From an uncultured Bacteroidia bacterium (GTDB lineage: Bacteria > Bacteroidota > Bacteroidia > Bacteroidales > UBA932), in assembly GCA_902762655.1 (NCBI GenBank), contig CACWOZ010000002.1, positions 1 to 64,000 of the forward strand: DNA of 64,000 bases, in the 5' to 3' direction. A program made the translations under genes and the position numbers. The notes under the pieces are model-generated. The model was not told the origin of the DNA. It worked only from the letters and a program-made list of their open reading frames with translations, and did not search any database. Below are positions 7,602 to 56,366 of this stretch, one piece after another; position 1 is the stretch's first letter; each line of letters begins with the position of its first letter.

Positions 7602-8492
7602 TTGGCACTCAGTTTTTTCCAGAAGATATCCCGGGCCATCACCGGTAAGTCGAGGGTGGATGATGATACCCTCGACGCTATCGAAGAGGCCCTGATTGAA
7701 TCTGATATGGGTGTCGATACCACGCTTAAAGTGGTCGACGCCCTTGAAGACAGAGTAAGCAGAGACAAGTACACCTCCTTCGACGAGTTGGTGTCTTATC
7801 TGCGAGATGAAATTTCCGCCCTTCTGCAAAAGGGCGGAAATTCTGTTGAATCGCTGGAGGCCCACAAGCCTTATGTGATACTTGTGGTGGGTGTGAACGG
7901 CGTGGGTAAGACCACGACGATTGGGAAACTGGCTCATCTCTACAAGAGTCGCGGCAAAAAGGTAATACTTGGTGCCGCAGACACTTTCCGTGCCGCTGCC
8001 GTAGATCAACTGGAGATATGGGCAGAGAGGGCAGGTGTGGATATAGTCCGCCAGGCCATGGGTTCAGATCCGGCATCCGTGGCTTACGATACGGTAAAGG
8101 CTGCTGTCGCCCGTGGTACCGATGTCGCTATTATCGACACTGCAGGCCGTCTGCACAACCGCATCGATCTTATGAATGAGCTGGGCAAGATAAGGAATGT
8201 CTGCCGAAAGGTCATTCCTGATGCCCCTCACGATGTGATGCTCATCCTGGATGCCTCTACTGGGCAGAATGCTTTCCAACAGGCAAAGGAATTCTCCCGT
8301 GCTACGGACATCACATCCATAACGGTCACCAAACTCGACGGCACCGCGAAGGGCGGCGTCGTAGTAGGTCTTACCGACCAGTTCGAAGTGCCGGTGCGCT
8401 TCATAGGAACGGGTGAGGGAATGGAAGATTTGAAATATTTTGACAGGGATGCTTTTGTGGCCTCACTGTTTGATCCGGAAGATTTGAAATAG
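7602..8492 (+). CDS. ftsY: Signal recognition particle receptor FtsY
   Basis: A 296-residue SRP receptor GTPase consisting of N and G domains only, without the acidic A domain of enterobacteria. G1 is VGVNGVGKTTT, then DTFRAAAVDQL, DTAGR (G3), TKLDGTAKGG (G4) and the closing FIGTGE. It receives SRP-ribosome complexes at the inner membrane. The apparent start is TTG at 7602, 3 nt after the DUF4295 stop. A perfect 13-bp hairpin (7811-7842) lies inside the coding region at the N/G junction (see separate entry). Confidence 0.96.
   Translation: MALSFFQKISRAITGKSRVDDDTLDAIEEALIESDMGVDTTLKVVDALEDRVSRDKYTSFDELVSYLRDEISALLQKGGNSVESLEAHKPYVILVVGVNGVGKTTTIGKLAHLYKSRGKKVILGAADTFRAAAVDQLEIWAERAGVDIVRQAMGSDPASVAYDTVKAAVARGTDVAIIDTAGRLHNRIDLMNELGKIRNVCRKVIPDAPHDVMLILDASTGQNAFQQAKEFSRATDITSITVTKLDGTAKGGVVVGLTDQFEVPVRFIGTGEGMEDLKYFDRDAFVASLFDPEDLK
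7811..7842 (+). repeat. Perfect hairpin inside ftsY
   Basis: AATTTCCGCCCTT (7811-7823) and its exact reverse complement (7830-7842) are separated by a 6-nt loop, within codons ~70-81 of ftsY. The encoded stretch (ISALLQKGGNS) falls in the variable linker between the N and G domains, so it may be a small in-frame insertion. Confidence 0.6.
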
Positions 8493-38655: not shown

Positions 38656-38689
38656 AAAAAAGGCTTGTGTAGACGCACAAGCCTTTTTT
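38655..38689. terminator. Bidirectional terminator between radC and fba
   Basis: AGGCTTGTG (38661-38669) pairs with CACAAGCCT (38676-38684), with A tracts on the left and T tracts on the right. It can end transcription of the convergent radC and fba genes from both sides. Confidence 0.9.
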
Positions 38690-44998: not shown

Positions 44999-45037
44999 CT
45001 TAAAACAAATCGGCAGAATACGCCGATTTGTTTTAAG
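44999..45037 (+). terminator. Long hairpin after the permease gene
   Basis: CTTAAAACAAATCGGC (44999-45014) is perfectly complementary to 45022-45037, a 16-bp stem with a 7-nt loop. The A-rich left base and T-rich right base let it act as a terminator although no free T tract follows. Confidence 0.7.
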
Positions 45038-49842: not shown

Positions 49843-51810
49843 TCATAGTTTTACTATCGTTCCGACTTTCAGCCATAGTCCAGGCTGAGGAATGTTTCCA
49901 TGGTCGAAATATCTTGCGTCCAAAAGGTTCTCGGCTTGAAGGAAAAAGGTCCATGTTGTCAGTTGGCAGGAAATCTTCGCATCCAGCAGGCTGTAAGGTT
50001 TGTAGGAAACCGCCTCCCCACTTCCTTTGCCGTCCAGAAATTCTTCGTAGTTACCAACCCTGTCCATCCATCTGTACGAAAGGTTTATGCTGAAGTGCTT
50101 CATGAAATTCAAGTCTGCCTGCAGTACGAATTTGTTCCGCAGATACTCCAGTGCATAGAATGACTGTATGCCGTCTTTGCTATCTTTCTTTTGATTGATA
50201 TGTGCGAAACTTGCAGAAATGTTCTTCAATGGAAAGCCTGGCTTTCCGATCATGATGGTAGGATCGAGGCGTAGGGTGATTTCTTCGCCGAACGATTTGA
50301 TGCGGGCGTGGTTTACTGACTGCCAGGGCGCATCTTCCACGCCCGTCACCCTTATCCAGTCGATCAGGTCGCGTCCGTCCAGAGCATAGATGCTTCCGAC
50401 TAGTCTGATTCCCCGAGCAAGATACTTGAATCCACCTTCCAGAGACTGCATCTTTTCAGCCTTGAGGTTCTTGTCTGCCTTGTATCCTCCGACCGAATAA
50501 TAAAGTTCGGTGAAGGATGGCATGCGCAGAGAACTGTTGTAGGAAGCATAGAGTTTCAGTTTCGGTGAGATGCGTAAACTGGCGTCGGCGCCAGGGTAAA
50601 TCCTGAAGCCTTCATTGTTGCCGGTGTTGCGTGAGATGCTTGCCCCTCCCGAGAAACTGAACCAGGATATGCTGATGTCGTGCTCCAGGAAAAGGCTTAT
50701 GTCGGAACGGTTAAGGCCGACCTTATAGCTCGCATCGTGGCCGCGCACCTTGCGCTCTTTCTCCAGCGGCTCACCCAGATTCGTGCTGATTATGTCTTCG
50801 TTGCGCACTTCAGCCCCAAATGCTGTCTTTCCGAGCGCGGAACTGAACCATCCGTCCAGGTTGAATCCGAGGACGTTGGTCCTGTGGTAGTTGAAAGGAT
50901 AGAGGTCCGGTCGCGAACGGAACAGTTCGAAGCGGTCTTCGCCGTGATTCCAGTATATTCTGGGGCGGAGATGCAGCTTGCCTGAAGACTCTCCCTGCAA
51001 CGCCAGGAAGGTCTTGGCTGTATGCTCGAACTGGTCGTCGAAGCGGGGAGAGTAAAAGGTCCCCGATCCGAAATCCTTTACTGATATGCCTGAGTGCCAT
51101 CCCAACTTGAATCCTTTGATGGTGGCGTCGCCGTGATAGAAGGCCTTGGCCGTCTTGAAATCCATATTGAGGCCACCGGCGGAATTGCGGGTGTATCCGT
51201 CACTGCGGGAGTATCCTGCCGACAGATTGTGACTTGCATTCCTCCCGGCCATTCCTGCTGCGACCGAGCCTGACGCCAGCCCGTGGGAGCCGCCTTCAAG
51301 TCTGGCTTCCACGCTGTTGCTGGTAGATTTCTTCGTTACTATGTTGATTGCTCCGAGGAGGGAAGATGTACCATAGGTGCGTGCGGCCGGGCCTTCCAGG
51401 ATTTCGATCCGTTCTATTTGTGAGATGGGTACTGGAAAATCTGCGGAGTTGTGCCCTGTCTGCGGGTCGGAGATGCTAATCCCGTCCAGCAGGACGGCGA
51501 TCTGTTCGCAGGTGCCTCCACGCAGGCTGATGTCGGTCTGTATACCTTGAGGGCCTCTCTGCCTCACGTCTACTCCGACGGCGGCTTTCAAGAGGTCGTT
51601 TACCGTAGTGGCGGGTATCGACGCGATGGCCACGCTGTCCATAACCGTCACCATCCTTGCGCTCTGTCCGAGGAAGGACGGGAGACGGCTGGCTGTCACC
51701 ACCACGCCTTCAAGTTTTTCAAAGTTGTCCAGGCTCTGGGCTCTGAGACCAATATTCGCAGCCATGACTATGGCTGCGAATACCGGAAATAATAACTGTT
51801 TGATAGGCAA
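49843..51810 (-). CDS. TonB-dependent outer-membrane receptor (BtuB-like)
   Basis: A 655-residue receptor: signal peptide, TonB-box region (LEGVVVTASRLP), plug domain with DISLRGGTCEQIAVLLDGISI and RIEILEGPAARTYGT, and a ~500-residue beta-barrel ending VGTIVKL. The short plug without an N-terminal carboxypeptidase-like domain resembles BtuB rather than SusC. The only start in place is TTG at 51810, 4 nt after the dehydrogenase stop, which indicates coupled expression. A vitamin or small-ligand substrate is suggested by similarity, a sugar acid by the operon; the sequence does not settle it. Confidence 0.87.
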   Translation of the reverse strand: MPIKQLLFPVFAAIVMAANIGLRAQSLDNFEKLEGVVVTASRLPSFLGQSARMVTVMDSVAIASIPATTVNDLLKAAVGVDVRQRGPQGIQTDISLRGGTCEQIAVLLDGISISDPQTGHNSADFPVPISQIERIEILEGPAARTYGTSSLLGAINIVTKKSTSNSVEARLEGGSHGLASGSVAAGMAGRNASHNLSAGYSRSDGYTRNSAGGLNMDFKTAKAFYHGDATIKGFKLGWHSGISVKDFGSGTFYSPRFDDQFEHTAKTFLALQGESSGKLHLRPRIYWNHGEDRFELFRSRPDLYPFNYHRTNVLGFNLDGWFSSALGKTAFGAEVRNEDIISTNLGEPLEKERKVRGHDASYKVGLNRSDISLFLEHDISISWFSFSGGASISRNTGNNEGFRIYPGADASLRISPKLKLYASYNSSLRMPSFTELYYSVGGYKADKNLKAEKMQSLEGGFKYLARGIRLVGSIYALDGRDLIDWIRVTGVEDAPWQSVNHARIKSFGEEITLRLDPTIMIGKPGFPLKNISASFAHINQKKDSKDGIQSFYALEYLRNKFVLQADLNFMKHFSINLSYRWMDRVGNYEEFLDGKGSGEAVSYKPYSLLDAKISCQLTTWTFFLQAENLLDARYFDHGNIPQPGLWLKVGTIVKL

Positions 51811-51814
51811 TTCT

Positions 51815-53083
51815 TTAGTTTAATTGATCGGCGTGCGAAAGGAGATACTTTTCTGCTTCTGCGTTCCAAAGACCGTTATGGGCCTTGCATATGCGGTCGA
51901 GTTCGTCGTAAACGGGCTTGCCCATCTTTCCGAAGTCGGCGATTGCTGTGAGAGGCATCGTCAGCTGTGTGTAAACCATCTTCTTTCCCCCGGGAATATT
52001 CGGGAGATTGAGGGTAGTATCCACCACGGTGTTGAGGCCGCCGATATGGGTGATGAGCCCGGCTGGATCCATACCCTTGCCCATCAGGTCGATGGCTTCG
52101 CGCATATCGTCGGTGTTGCCGCCGCTGGTGCCCACGATGTGGTGGGCTTCGTAGTGCACATTGTAGAAGTTGAACTTGGCGCTGAAGTCCGGGCTCTTTG
52201 GGCCGGAGAAGAAGTCCAGGCACCCGTCGAAGCCGAGGATGGCATCGGCCTGCTCGACAACCGCCGGCACGGGGGCCATTACCACGACATCGTCGTAGCC
52301 TGTTCCGCCGGAGAGTTCCTTGAGGGTGGCTACCGGATCTCCGCTGCCGGTGTTTACATAATGTATGTCGATTCCACGCTTTGCAAACATCTCTTTAGTG
52401 TAAAGGGACTCTGCACGGTCGAGGCGGCTCTGGTCGATATCCGTAACGACAAACAGGGAAGGAACCGGTCCCTCGCGGTGCAGCACGTAGTTGATCATTG
52501 CCAGTCCCATAGGGCCGACACCTGCGAGCAGGGCAAGTTTGCCTCCTTCCTTGATTTCCATCTTGTGTTCATACGATCCGGGAGTCGTGTGATAGTGAGC
52601 GTGGAGAGCGCCAATCACGCAGCTGATTGGTTCGCTGAGAGATGCAGGGTAGAAGGCGTCGCCGAAATAGCGGAAGAGGCACTTCTGCTCCATCACCTCG
52701 TTGGGGATGATGACGTAGGTGGCGTCGCCGCCGCAATACTTGTATGAGTAACCAGGGGCCGAGAGGATGCCTACGGGGCCGCCGGGATAATTGATTGCGG
52801 GCTGGATGCTGAATCTGTCGCCAGGTTTGAACTCATCCTGCCATTTCTTGCCCACTTCCACGATGACACCGGCGAATTCGTGGCCGATGATGGTCGGATT
52901 CTCCGCCACATCGTCGGGAACGCGCTTGTGGTCTGCTCCCTGGTGGGAGGATTTGTAGGACGACATACAGATGTCATCGCTGATCACTTTTGCGAGGATC
53001 TCGTCTTCTTTGATTGCAGGAAGTTCAAATTCTTCCAACCTCAAATCGTCTTTTCCGTAAAGACGTACTGCTTTTGTTTTCAT
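51815..53083 (-). CDS. Zinc-binding dehydrogenase, L-sorbose-1-phosphate reductase-like
   Basis: A 422-residue medium-chain dehydrogenase/reductase. GHEFAGVIVEVGKKW is the zinc-dependent catalytic motif region, LLAGVGPMGLAMINYVLH the NAD(P)-binding loop, and the long insert before it fits the SorE group, which reduces sorbose 1-phosphate to glucitol 6-phosphate. The ATG at 53083 (MKTKAVRLYG) begins the fold. Together with the aldolase/SDR upstream it suggests redox conversion of a ketose or deoxyketose derivative. Confidence 0.82.
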   Translation of the reverse strand: MKTKAVRLYGKDDLRLEEFELPAIKEDEILAKVISDDICMSSYKSSHQGADHKRVPDDVAENPTIIGHEFAGVIVEVGKKWQDEFKPGDRFSIQPAINYPGGPVGILSAPGYSYKYCGGDATYVIIPNEVMEQKCLFRYFGDAFYPASLSEPISCVIGALHAHYHTTPGSYEHKMEIKEGGKLALLAGVGPMGLAMINYVLHREGPVPSLFVVTDIDQSRLDRAESLYTKEMFAKRGIDIHYVNTGSGDPVATLKELSGGTGYDDVVVMAPVPAVVEQADAILGFDGCLDFFSGPKSPDFSAKFNFYNVHYEAHHIVGTSGGNTDDMREAIDLMGKGMDPAGLITHIGGLNTVVDTTLNLPNIPGGKKMVYTQLTMPLTAIADFGKMGKPVYDELDRICKAHNGLWNAEAEKYLLSHADQLN

Positions 53084-53110: not shown

Positions 53111-53176
53111 TTTTTGCCGGAGCATTTGTCCGGCGAAGCATTTTTTCGGCGAGCCGGAAAATGACTCCGGCAAAAA
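53111..53176 (-). repeat. Conserved-loop hairpin, copy 1 (intergenic)
   Basis: Outer stem TTTTTGCCGGAG/CTCCGGCAAAAA (53111-53122, 53165-53176) and inner stem TCCGGC/GCCGGA (53129-53134, 53153-53158). The plus-strand loop is GAAGCATTTTTTCGGCGA, matching the loops at 54506, 55187 and 55812. It fills the gap between the aldolase/SDR and SorE-like genes. Confidence 0.75.
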
Positions 53177-53179
53177 AGC

Positions 53180-55150
53180 CTAGGCAAGCATTACCTGGCC
53201 GCCCGTCACCGGAATTGCCTGGCCGGTCTCGCCGGTCTGCTCGATTGCATAGAGGATCGCACGTGTCACATCCAGGGGATTGCATCCCTTGTGCATGGGC
53301 ACTTTGCTAAGGTAGTACTCCTTCACGTCCTCCACAGTCTTTGCGCCGGGCACCTTGCCTGCATTGAGATACTGCACATAGAGCCCCTTCACCGGGTCGC
53401 TCCACAGCGGACCGTCCAGGAAGTTTCCGGGGCAGATGCTGTTCACCTTGATGCGGTAGGGGGCGAGTTCGAGGGCGAAGGACTGGGTGAGCCCGATGCC
53501 GCCGAACTTGCTTCCGGCGTAGGCGAAATTGGCCTTGCTGCCGACCAGTCCGCTCTTGCTGTTCACCTGGATGATGTCGGCGAAGTATTCGGGATCCACT
53601 GCAGTCTGCAGTTTCATCACGTGCTGGGCAACCTTGGCGCAGTAGAAGTATGCGCTGTAGTTGATTTTGGTCACGAATTCCATATTCTCGGGAGTCATGG
53701 CCTCGAGGTCGCCTGCTCGAACGACGCCGGCGTTGCTTACGAATGCGTCAAGCGCACCGAAGTTGCAGATGGTCACAGCCATAAGATTGTTCAGGCTCTC
53801 CATATCGGCGACATTGGTCTTGACGAAGATGGCCTTGTTGTTCTTGGCAATCTCATTGAAGGATGCTGCCGTTGCCTCTCCGGTTACCTCATTGAGGTCG
53901 GCGACAACGATATTGGCACCCTCTTTCATAAGTTCGCGGGCGATTCCCTCGCCGAAGCCTTGTGCCGCGCCGGTTACGATTATTGTCTTGCCTTCTGCGC
54001 GTCCTGCGGATGCTCCTGCGGATACCTTGCGGCGGTAGTTCTCAACTTCCCAATTATCGATGAAATCGATCCACCTGGGCTCCATCGGATGTTCTCCACC
54101 GAATGCCTGGGCACCGGCGGCGACCTTCATCGCATCCAGGAATACCTCTGTGATGATGCCGGCATTCTTTGCGTTGTCGCCCACGGCTACCAGCCCTATG
54201 CCCTTGATGAGCAGCACCTTGGGAGTGTGGCCGTATTTGGAGACATAATCTTCGATGGCCTTTTCGGCATCAGCGGTGTCTTCAAGCCAGATGTAGTGAC
54301 TCTTGCAATACACTATGATGTCGGGCGTGAAGGGAGCGGACACCTTCTTGAATCCGGCTTTGCTTTCGGTGAACTGGTCGGTCAGTTCATTCTTTGTGAC
54401 ATTCAGCGTCTTAAGCCCGCGTCCACTGCGACTCAGTATCTGGCGGATTGCAGGGATGGACTCCACAACAGATGAAGCACTGTCGGAGACGGCGCTTTCC
54501 TCTTCGAGGCATTTTTCTGCCGAGAAGAGGAATGACGCCGTCGCAGACCCCAGTGTTGCAATGATCTCGCTATATATCTTGTCTATTTCCGCGACAGAAT
54601 CGGCTCCGACAAAGATTCCATGATTCTGCAGGAAGATGACCTGAGGTTCAGTTCCGCGGGCCGCCTTGTAGGCCTGGATCTCGTCGAAAACCTTTTTGAA
54701 AAGGGTATAGCCGGGATCGCAGTAGGGGATATAGAGAGCATCGGGGAACAACTCCTTGCACTTGGCTTCTGCCTGCACCGAGCACATCAGAGCATTGACT
54801 GCCGTAGGATGCAGATGGACGACGAATGCATAGTTGATGGCATTGTGCATCGAAGTCTCCACCGAAGGACGGCGGTCCTTGGTGATGCAAGCCGCAGCGA
54901 GGTCGTCTTTCACCTGGGCTTCACGCTCGGCAGTGTCGGCACTGTAGGCCTTGGTGCCCATTGGATTCAACTTGGCACGGTCCAGAACCGCGAAACCATC
55001 TTCTCCGATTGTTGCGAGTGCGTGGCCGCTGGCTTTCACCCACAGGCGGTCTGCGGTCTTGAAAGACGTATTGCCACCCCCGGCAATCACGAAACGCGAA
55101 TCAGCCCCGTACCTGCGGGACACCTCTATCAATTGTTCAATCTCTTTCAT
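53180..55150 (-). CDS. Bifunctional class II aldolase / short-chain dehydrogenase (RhaD-type fusion)
   Basis: A 656-residue fusion. Residues 1-~235 are a class II aldolase with zinc motifs HLHPTAVNAL and QNHGIF. Residues ~375-656 are a short-chain dehydrogenase with VTGAAQGFGEGIA, SNAGVVRAG, Ser in NSKSGLVG and YAGSK. Such fusions cleave rhamnulose 1-phosphate-type substrates and oxidise the released lactaldehyde; the exact sugar here is unknown because no kinase or isomerase is in the window. A conserved-loop hairpin (54491-54539) is inserted in frame at about residues 204-220, in the region after the aldolase zinc motifs. Confidence 0.88.
   Translation of the reverse strand: MKEIEQLIEVSRRYGADSRFVIAGGGNTSFKTADRLWVKASGHALATIGEDGFAVLDRAKLNPMGTKAYSADTAEREAQVKDDLAAACITKDRRPSVETSMHNAINYAFVVHLHPTAVNALMCSVQAEAKCKELFPDALYIPYCDPGYTLFKKVFDEIQAYKAARGTEPQVIFLQNHGIFVGADSVAEIDKIYSEIIATLGSATASFLFSAEKCLEEESAVSDSASSVVESIPAIRQILSRSGRGLKTLNVTKNELTDQFTESKAGFKKVSAPFTPDIIVYCKSHYIWLEDTADAEKAIEDYVSKYGHTPKVLLIKGIGLVAVGDNAKNAGIITEVFLDAMKVAAGAQAFGGEHPMEPRWIDFIDNWEVENYRRKVSAGASAGRAEGKTIIVTGAAQGFGEGIARELMKEGANIVVADLNEVTGEATAASFNEIAKNNKAIFVKTNVADMESLNNLMAVTICNFGALDAFVSNAGVVRAGDLEAMTPENMEFVTKINYSAYFYCAKVAQHVMKLQTAVDPEYFADIIQVNSKSGLVGSKANFAYAGSKFGGIGLTQSFALELAPYRIKVNSICPGNFLDGPLWSDPVKGLYVQYLNAGKVPGAKTVEDVKEYYLSKVPMHKGCNPLDVTRAILYAIEQTGETGQAIPVTGGQVMLA
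54491..54539 (-). repeat. Conserved-loop hairpin, copy 2 (inside the aldolase/SDR gene)
   Basis: TTCCTCTTC (54497-54505) pairs with GAAGAGGAA (54524-54532), and GGCG/CGCC close the base. The loop is GAGGCATTTTTCTGCCGA. The host protein reads through it as SFLFSAEKCLEEES. Confidence 0.75.
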
Positions 55151-55166
55151 AGTTATTATTATTTGA

Positions 55167-55225
55167 GTCGGTTCCTATTGCTTTTCGGAGCATTTTTTCT
55201 GCGGAGAAAAGCAATAGGAACCGAC
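55167..55225 (-). repeat. Conserved-loop hairpin, copy 3 (intergenic)
   Basis: A perfect 20-bp stem (55167-55186 with 55206-55225) and the loop GGAGCATTTTTTCTGCGGA. It fills the gap between the PHP and aldolase/SDR genes. Confidence 0.8.
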
Positions 55226-55232
55226 GTCCAGA

Positions 55233-56366
55233 TCATGAAATTTTTTTTAGGATCAGATCCTCGCCAGCCGCAATGGAGTCAAGCCCTGCTTGATGCGCTG
55301 CAATCGCGCAGGCGCCACGGAAGTTGATGGCCTTCAGCTTGTCGGAAAGGTCAGCGGCATCGCGAGTGCGAAGCTTGATGGGCTCCATAGCCGGCGTATT
55401 GTGCTCCGAACCGAAACTCACGATGAACCCTTCGTCTTCCAGATATCCGGCATACTGCTCCAGAACGGCGGTGGTGTTACGGGTGGTAATGAACTCCACA
55501 GAACGGAAACCGCGCTTTTTCAGGGTATCCGCAGCTTTCTGAAGATCGCCCTCAAAATCAGTGAAATTTCCCTTGGCGTCATCTGCCAGGAAAGGATAGG
55601 TGGGTATGCCTCCGGCAGCCTCGATGATGCGCTGAACGGTAGTCATCGGAAGGAAAGCCTTGGGATCTTCCGGCACGAAAGCAGCACCTCCAGCCTTCAG
55701 CAAACGGCTGCGAATCTCGTTCTCTATGGCCGCGACGTTGCTCACATCCGACTTCGCCGCCTGCCCAAAGATCTTCGCGTAGTGATCAGCGATTGCCTGG
55801 AGTTCCGACGCGGACGCTTTTTTTGCTTGAGCGTCGGAGACTCCAGCAAGCGCTATACGTTCTACTGCAAGTCGCAACGCCTTGGCAAGGTGCCTCTCGC
55901 GGATAGAACCGCGGGTAAGATCGGCGGCAATCTTTGCAAAGTCCAGCGTGAACTCCTCGCCAACAGTTTTCAGATGCTCGTTCAGTTTGACGCACATGCG
56001 CTCCACCTGGGCATTGCTCTCGGCCTTCACGTCCGCAAGTTGGCGGGCTTCTTCTCCGGAGAGAATGACGGGATATGCCAGACCCTTGCCGCTGATATAG
56101 GTACGGCCGGGATTGTTGGGGTCGTTCACGCGCAGGCCTGCAGCCTGATCTTCGGCATTGAGGGAGATGAACTCGATACCAAAAAGAGGGAAGAGGGCGC
56201 GCTCGGCGCAGCCCTCCTTCCAGTCCTTGTATCCGTCCATCGAATAGAAATCGTTGATTCCCACAACCTTGACTCCTTCGGAAGCGGCCATGTCAAGGGC
56301 CTGCTTCACATCGCTGAAAGCGCTGAAGGAGTATGGGGTGTGCAGATGGGCATTTACATCTATCAT
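55233..56366 (-). CDS. PHP-domain protein
   Basis: A 377-residue protein with a PHP metal site: HLHTPYSFSAF at about 7-17, INDFYSMDGY near 40, and a C-terminal FGSEHNTP. PHP domains are trinuclear-metal phosphoesterases (histidinol phosphatase, nucleoside phosphatases). A helical insert (about 120-235) interrupts the fold, and one conserved-loop hairpin lies in it. The place between the E1 gene and the aldolase/SDR gene suggests a sugar-phosphate or related phosphoester as substrate; this is inference. I do not know a named family with this layout. Confidence 0.7.
   Translation of the reverse strand: MIDVNAHLHTPYSFSAFSDVKQALDMAASEGVKVVGINDFYSMDGYKDWKEGCAERALFPLFGIEFISLNAEDQAAGLRVNDPNNPGRTYISGKGLAYPVILSGEEARQLADVKAESNAQVERMCVKLNEHLKTVGEEFTLDFAKIAADLTRGSIRERHLAKALRLAVERIALAGVSDAQAKKASASELQAIADHYAKIFGQAAKSDVSNVAAIENEIRSRLLKAGGAAFVPEDPKAFLPMTTVQRIIEAAGGIPTYPFLADDAKGNFTDFEGDLQKAADTLKKRGFRSVEFITTRNTTAVLEQYAGYLEDEGFIVSFGSEHNTPAMEPIKLRTRDAADLSDKLKAINFRGACAIAAHQAGLDSIAAGEDLILKKIS
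55797..55846 (-). repeat. Conserved-loop hairpin, copy 4 (inside the PHP gene)
   Basis: TCCGACGC (55804-55811) pairs with GCGTCGGA (55831-55838), extended by CTGGAG/CTCCAG (55797-55802, 55841-55846) across a small bulge. The loop is GGACGCTTTTTTTGCTTGA, the most divergent of the four. The host protein reads VSDAQAKKASASELQ through it. Confidence 0.7.

Follow-up and report, generated by a model that had tools for sequence, protein, structure and literature searches.

We analysed a 64,000-nt stretch of DNA (the window) from an uncultured Bacteroidia bacterium of the Bacteroidales lineage UBA932 (contig CACWOZ010000002.1, assembly GCA_902762655.1). Four hairpins with a T-run loop, named here after the first position of their core, lie among minus-strand genes for a PHP-domain protein, an aldolase/short-chain dehydrogenase (SDR) fusion and a zinc dehydrogenase (Table 1); the mRNA of these genes thus bears the A-rich complement of the loops. 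Two copies are located in spacers, 53135 between the aldolase/SDR and zinc dehydrogenase genes and 55187 between the PHP and aldolase/SDR genes. The other two lie in frame within genes: 54506 encodes the peptide ATASFLFSAEKCLEEESAVS in the aldolase/SDR gene, where the Pfam-matched open reading frame (ORF) spans it, and 55812 encodes LAGVSDAQAKKASASELQA in the PHP-domain gene. All gene and start assignments are our own ORF reading, made without a gene caller.

A sequence-only reading of the window had described four hairpins with perfect stems of 6-20 bp, and this observation is real: perfect pairing adjoining the loop extends over 6 bp (53135), 9 bp (54506), 20 bp (55187), and 8 bp (55812), and stems of approximately 20-24 bp are reached once bulges are allowed. 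Seven copies served to build a covariance model (R1): 55187 and 55812 of the window, and five located elsewhere in the organism's own genome (2.18 Mb, designated G000; other G numbers denote genomes of relatives). The copies at 54506 and 53135, which were left out of the training set, were recovered with window E-values of 3.2e-5 and 0.0069 and whole-genome E-values of 0.001 and 0.235, respectively; because of the latter value, the 53135 copy is weak taken alone. The next-best R1 match in the window, which is antisense and overlaps the 53135 copy, scored 14.4 bits, and the one after it 13.6 bits; the window thus holds no further convincing copy, as had been claimed.

Table 1. Palindromic elements and surrounding genes, with positions in the window.
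Feature	Position	Strand	Description
Palindromic element 1	53111..53176	+	core 53135-53152; inverted repeat I1, 24-nt arms, 83%; R1 19.9 bits
Palindromic element 2	54482..54548	+	core 54506-54523; extent from fold; R1 28.2 bits
Palindromic element 3	55167..55225	+	core 55187-55205; perfect 20-bp arms, inverted repeat I2, 100%; R1 66.1 bits
Palindromic element 4	55788..55854	+	core 55812-55830; extent from fold; R1 53.5 bits
Class II aldolase/short-chain dehydrogenase fusion (host gene)	53180..55150	-	ORF; PF00596, PF00106
PHP-domain protein (host gene)	55233..56366	-	ORF; PF02811
Zinc-binding dehydrogenase (neighbour)	51815..53083	-	ORF, start at an ATG within a longer listed ORF; PF08240, PF00107

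The covariance-model search that had been proposed as a check yielded, in the own genome, 26 matches with E ≤ 1, 19 of them outside the training set, which contradicts the possibility that no further copies exist. Of these matches, 23 had E ≤ 0.03 and three, including 53135, had E-values of 0.2-0.4. With three or fewer mismatches allowed, a 19-nt core pattern gave three forward and three reverse matches versus 0 and 0 with the reversed control. The copies form a dispersed family: they occupy many unrelated genes and spacers, with the core in both orientations relative to genes, so that a function peculiar to this operon, as had been suggested, is not supported.

Most copies share a common fold plan, in which long arms (mostly around 20 bp with bulges) lead through a tandem G.A type internal loop, GGA/GGA or TGATGA/GAAGAA in sequence, to a short stem that is closed by the T-run loop; L027 and L028 are among the few that fold poorly. 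The cores fall into the families GGAGCATTTTTTCTGCGGA, CTGATGAGCATTTTTCTGCGAAGAAG, TGAGCCTTTTTTTGGCGAAG (arms partly fixed, GTCATT on the other strand), and CGAAGC..GGCGAG, and longer-loop forms occur in congeners. The 53135 copy belongs to the GTCATT subfamily, its minus strand being the one that carries this motif. GTCATT was present at the hairpin foot in 7 of the 26 copies versus a shuffled mean of 0.4, [CT]GTC on the A-run strand in 16 versus 13.6, and a GTAG/GTGG tag showed no excess (16 versus 20.9). Rfam gave no match in the window at the gathering score; when four loci bearing elements were searched at E ≤ 1, only sub-threshold matches lay over elements, including two to microRNA precursors (E = 0.11 and 0.72). 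A hammerhead-like reading of the core (CTGATGAG...CGAA) was rejected, as the arms pair mutually and leave no third strand; Rfam gave no hammerhead match. In G021, three copies (L035, L047, and L053) have common inner arms and a longer loop, and their outer arms differ and pair well. A second, compact repeat, TGTCATTCCGAGCGAAGCGAAGGAATCT (L224, L221, L223, L226, and L028), was seen in G084 between lysS and asnA, apparently within asnA of two congeners, and beside one element in G000.

As a natural control, a 20-base second-core pattern with a variable gap was applied to genome and viral contigs. All 17 matches on 15 Bacteroidales contigs had paired arms, whereas none of 12 matches elsewhere (ten other genome contigs and two viral contigs) did. 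Arm scores were 20-40 for the former and ≤8 for the ten controls scored, L163 being too close to a contig end and L178 duplicating L177. A phage origin was rejected, the two viral pattern matches being without arms. Among the 15 Bacteroidales contigs, four (L161, L172, L175, and L176) have titles that name a ruminant forestomach sample; RUG names likewise indicate rumen. Across the genus, R1 matched 11 of 101 genomes at E ≤ 0.01, the own one included, a count that is overstated by ordinary terminators such as the three matches in G019. The R2 search, with stricter filters at which weak matches are lost, found 18 of 400 genomes at E ≤ 0.001 (again including the own), and an order-level search of 295 gave the own genome and one single match. 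From these counts the family appears to be patchily distributed in a single genus, probably Cryptobacteroides of GTDB, and is, as far as tested, confined to one Bacteroidales clade. In the literature, including a search by sequence, no description of these repeats was found.

It is barely conceivable that the hairpins are chance palindromes or products of codon bias. In favour, two of the four window copies are coding; codon bias cannot account for the intergenic copies, and the genome-wide E-values, the reversed-pattern control, and the paired arms in 17/17 versus 0/12 matches argue against both.

Fourteen of the 26 own-genome copies lie in frame in 12 Pfam-matched ORFs, ten were judged intergenic, and two (C20:229 and C7:76331) were placed in neither class. 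The hosts are RluA, IspH, shikimate kinase, a metallo-β-lactamase (MBL)-fold protein (two copies), RnpA (two copies), the aldolase/SDR and PHP proteins, an RNase Z type protein, GcvPB, AtpB, an OstA-like protein, and IF-2. In AtpB, OstA, and IF-2 the copy is outside the matched domain, and for AtpB an over-long N-terminus is therefore possible. Copies judged intergenic include C4:89112, which overlaps an ORF end, and C3:37792 and C6:44224, which are located just ahead of the points where the genes for TyrS and a pyruvate oxidoreductase probably begin. Orthologues of gcvPB, ispH, and the MBL-fold gene without the insert exist in relatives. The rnpA gene (L106:7844-8521, G000 C28) contains two elements and a third partial copy, with repeated peptides like EGPCPSSQKNAHQG in the linker and the C-terminal tail.

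These locations bear on whether the hairpins are transcription terminators, one hairpin type being swapped for another at gene ends. At two convergent gene pairs the idea has some appeal: the element is present in G000 and G170 at C6:89017 and in G000, G173, and G171 at C1:243967, and other species, inspected by eye, have ordinary terminators with an A-tract and T-tract or other hairpins at the same site. However, with 14 of 26 copies within ORFs and further ones separating the genes of a single operon, we regard this explanation as very improbable. None of the four window copies has a T-tract after the arms, and a terminator-pattern scan flagged only parts of the 53135 and 54506 regions, on the non-coding strand. 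Four perfect inverted repeats with 4-7 nt spacers elsewhere in the window (7811-7842, 38656-38689, 44999-45037, and 51753-51782) are probably ordinary terminators.

At orthologous sites, the element is present in some genomes and absent from others. Between lysS and asnA it was found in G000 only and was absent from all six informative relatives (the G120 contig, which lacks the gene ends, is uninformative): five have a few bases there (G171, G167, G329, G166, and G327), and G084 has a different short hairpin. Between nrdD and nrdG, 3 of 11 aligned genomes (G000, G098, and G120) contain it, and the genes nearly abut in G171, G166, and G327. The empty sites of the relatives contained no trace of either arm at nrdD-nrdG or lysS-asnA. 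This result separates two parts of the proposal that a mobile element copies its flank: mobile dispersal is supported by the 26 matches, the presence/absence patterns, and the 14 in-frame copies, and copying of the flank is not supported, being contradicted at these two sites. That a fixed loop is inserted and the arms are the target's own sequence might be suspected from arms that seem unrelated between copies at first sight, and from G084, which has the right half only at the 55812 site. We consider it highly unlikely, as the empty sites hold neither arm, arms within a family are related, and in ispH the element is the same in three species, arms included, though inverted.

Similar patterns were obtained at further sites. 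At the rnpA-yidD junction, G000 and G170 have copies and G084 has one in the opposite orientation, and there is none in G171, G329, G098, G226, or G166 (a run of N makes G120 uninformative); the second copy in the rnpA linker has a counterpart in G084 and none in G120. In gcvPB, the element occurs in two genomes, G000 and G170; G173 retains a remnant, and G171, G098, and G166 have none. The MBL-fold gene and ispH likewise have the element in some species and lack it or retain a remnant in others. In ispH, 65 nt of the element are identical in G000 compared with G120 and G173, yet inverted relative to the gene, the frame being open in both orientations. Among the window copies, 53135 shows few changes in the congener G120, with unchanged stem pairs, and is missing in G084 and others; 54506 is decayed or different in G120, G098, and G084; the G120 spacer is without 55187; and 55812 is absent from G120 and present in G098 with one T-A to C-G double change and one further change to a mismatch.

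The stems had been described as wholly different from each other. Their sequences do vary, but within one core family the arms are more alike than shuffled arms: for the left arms of 9 first-family and 14 second-family copies, agreement was 0.32-0.57 versus 0.26-0.27 after shuffling (p <0.001 to 0.021) at all three core distances. Both arms change in concert. In 125 aligned pairs of orthologous stems, 14 double Watson-Crick swaps were counted, 11 of them by transversion, together with one base pair gained on both arms; there were only two single changes, and in one case a double change produced a mismatch. These pairs come from seven comparisons at four sites (one hand-aligned) that share sequences, so the counts are not independent. 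Excluded from the count were 55812 in G098, 53135 in G120, and nrdD-nrdG in G120, where no base-by-base register could be set. The proportion of transversions is about that expected under equal chances of the three swaps, and the swaps are not mainly the transitions permitted by a G.U step. A gapped census of arm pairs in 52 elements (arm score ≥16, lower-scoring rows excluded, among them the own-genome copies L026, L108, and L028) gave 1062 Watson-Crick, 14 G.T, and 23 A.C pairs on the T-run strand; it was used in place of an ungapped mismatch census (4 G.T, 7 A.C). No clear G.U excess was observed on either strand.

If the pairing is selected at the RNA level, G.U pairs are expected to be favoured on the functional strand. 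The double swaps by transversion and the lack of a G.U excess are fitted better by re-matching of the arms at the DNA level than by a selected mRNA structure serving protein binding, processing, or stability, as the sequence-only reading had proposed. A selected RNA is thus a rival explanation, albeit an unlikely one. A conserved tip with variable arms, compensated changes in orthologues, and, on the T-run strand, a tandem G.A internal loop are what such an RNA would display. In addition, four species (L113, L157, L161, and L167) have a copy that precedes the tmRNA gene by approximately 35-85 bp, with nearly unchanged arms despite differing nearby flanks. On the other hand, G.T pairs do not exceed A.C pairs on the T-run strand (the reverse excess is small), 11 of the 14 double swaps are transversions without a G.U intermediate, and no Rfam match at the gathering score covers an element. 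Furthermore, the core occurs in both gene orientations, the T-run strand of the window copies is not the mRNA strand, and sites that bear a copy in one genome are without it in relatives.

Taken together, we consider it probable that the hairpins represent a dispersed mobile palindromic repeat of approximately 60-90 bp, lineage-specific and of the general kind of repetitive extragenic palindromic (REP) sequences and Rickettsia palindromic elements (RPE), whose arms are re-matched by replication template switching. Both stem strands most likely change together through DNA copying errors that re-match them. The tip, with its T-run loop, short stem, and tandem G.A type internal loop, would be recognised by a mobilising activity, probably in the form of a single-stranded DNA hairpin; for the arms, pairing alone would suffice. 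In the time between two moves, template switching during replication may copy one arm onto the other, so that drifting arms stay matched, and could also flip the element in place. No operon-specific function would be required; copies would persist in spacers and protein linkers where the host tolerates them. PMC8604942 describes template switching as homogenising inverted-repeat arms and inverting spacers and mentions bacterial data in which transversions are favoured, and PMC8794818 argues that hairpins are created and maintained by template switching. Only tentatively, and with reservations, we suggest the further-reaching idea that the tip alone may be heritable, the free arms being continually rewritten and re-matched by template switching. 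Such an element would repair its own palindrome, invert where it sits, and introduce in-frame peptides, readable in both orientations, into essential enzymes.

Several observations weigh against a mobile, template-switching repeat. The search for a mobilising enzyme found none, the parent transposon having been sought via PF01797 (Y1-transposase) only. Matches to this family were present in 18 of 20 genomes, the own included, with or without the element (G016, G096, and G080 have PF01797 and no R1 or R2 element match), and around the 30 Y1_Tnp loci scanned (L179-L208, among 41 listed matches) the palindromes are others, the present core flanking none. No target-site duplication, as expected of a miniature inverted-repeat transposable element (MITE), was definable at the sites, and none was seen by eye at lysS-asnA. 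The opposite orientation in ispH could reflect independent insertion. The tips of orthologous copies seem, by eye, to change more slowly than the arms, which is unexpected under pure neutrality and leaves room for a host function. At nrdD-nrdG, the stems were replaced wholesale in G120, while the more distant G098 retains the G000 stems, for which stepwise re-matching has no neat explanation. Finally, arm mismatches and indels are not rare, and three own-genome copies pair poorly (scores 12, 14, and 6 for L026, L108, and L028).

A Y1-type transposase of the REP-associated tyrosine transposase (RAYT) kind was rejected as the mobiliser, since its matches occur regardless of the element and other palindromes flank the 30 scanned loci; a Y1 enzyme acting in trans is still compatible with the data. 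In G084 (C12, L054), a Y1-type ORF (132-1010) is located approximately 490 bp from an element (1501-1552) that lies within the next gene, TruA-like by eye. Four Y1-transposase-like genes of the genus have perfect or near-perfect flanking palindromes with gene-specific arms (L198, at 833 and 2609; L201, 873 and 1955; L206, 772 and 1852; L207, 709 and 2467). In this they resemble the genes flanked by terminal inverted repeats that are described in PMC3733652.

Among known repeats, the RPE, as presented in PMC3733652, are like the present family short dispersed palindromes, many of them in frame in unrelated protein genes. Unlike them, the present family has a conserved tip, variable arms, and Bacteroidales hosts, as judged from descriptions of the two kinds. 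The CGTC-tagged REPs treated there have no dedicated transposase, occur within genes, and are also reported from Bacteroidetes. They are likewise small palindromes, and GTCATT stands at the hairpin foot in one of the present subfamilies (7 of 26 copies). However, their stems are given as 8-9 bp and their loops as 4-5 nt, whereas the present elements have stems of about 20 bp and longer loops, and the tag is absent from most; most copies would not count as CGTC REPs. The GTAG REPs with RAYT transposases are also dispersed hairpin-forming palindromes, but the present family is without GTAG/GTGG excess, and no scanned Y1-type locus is flanked by its core. Template-switch (quasipalindrome) hotspots share homogenised arms, an inverted spacer, and multi-base concerted changes; in PMC8604942 they are described as a mutation process and not as a force maintaining a mobile family.

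If this reading is correct, in-frame palindromes of the RPE kind would extend to a species-rich Bacteroidales clade, and the copies in RnpA, IspH, and IF-2 represent natural tests of insertion tolerance in conserved proteins. Covarying stems, the usual proof of a functional RNA, are here found in mobile DNA without a G.U signal, which calls for caution in covariation-based RNA discovery. The orthologous copies help to separate RNA selection from DNA template switching, two usually confounded causes of compensatory change. If the tip alone proves heritable, each such genome would contain dozens of natural template-switching recorders.

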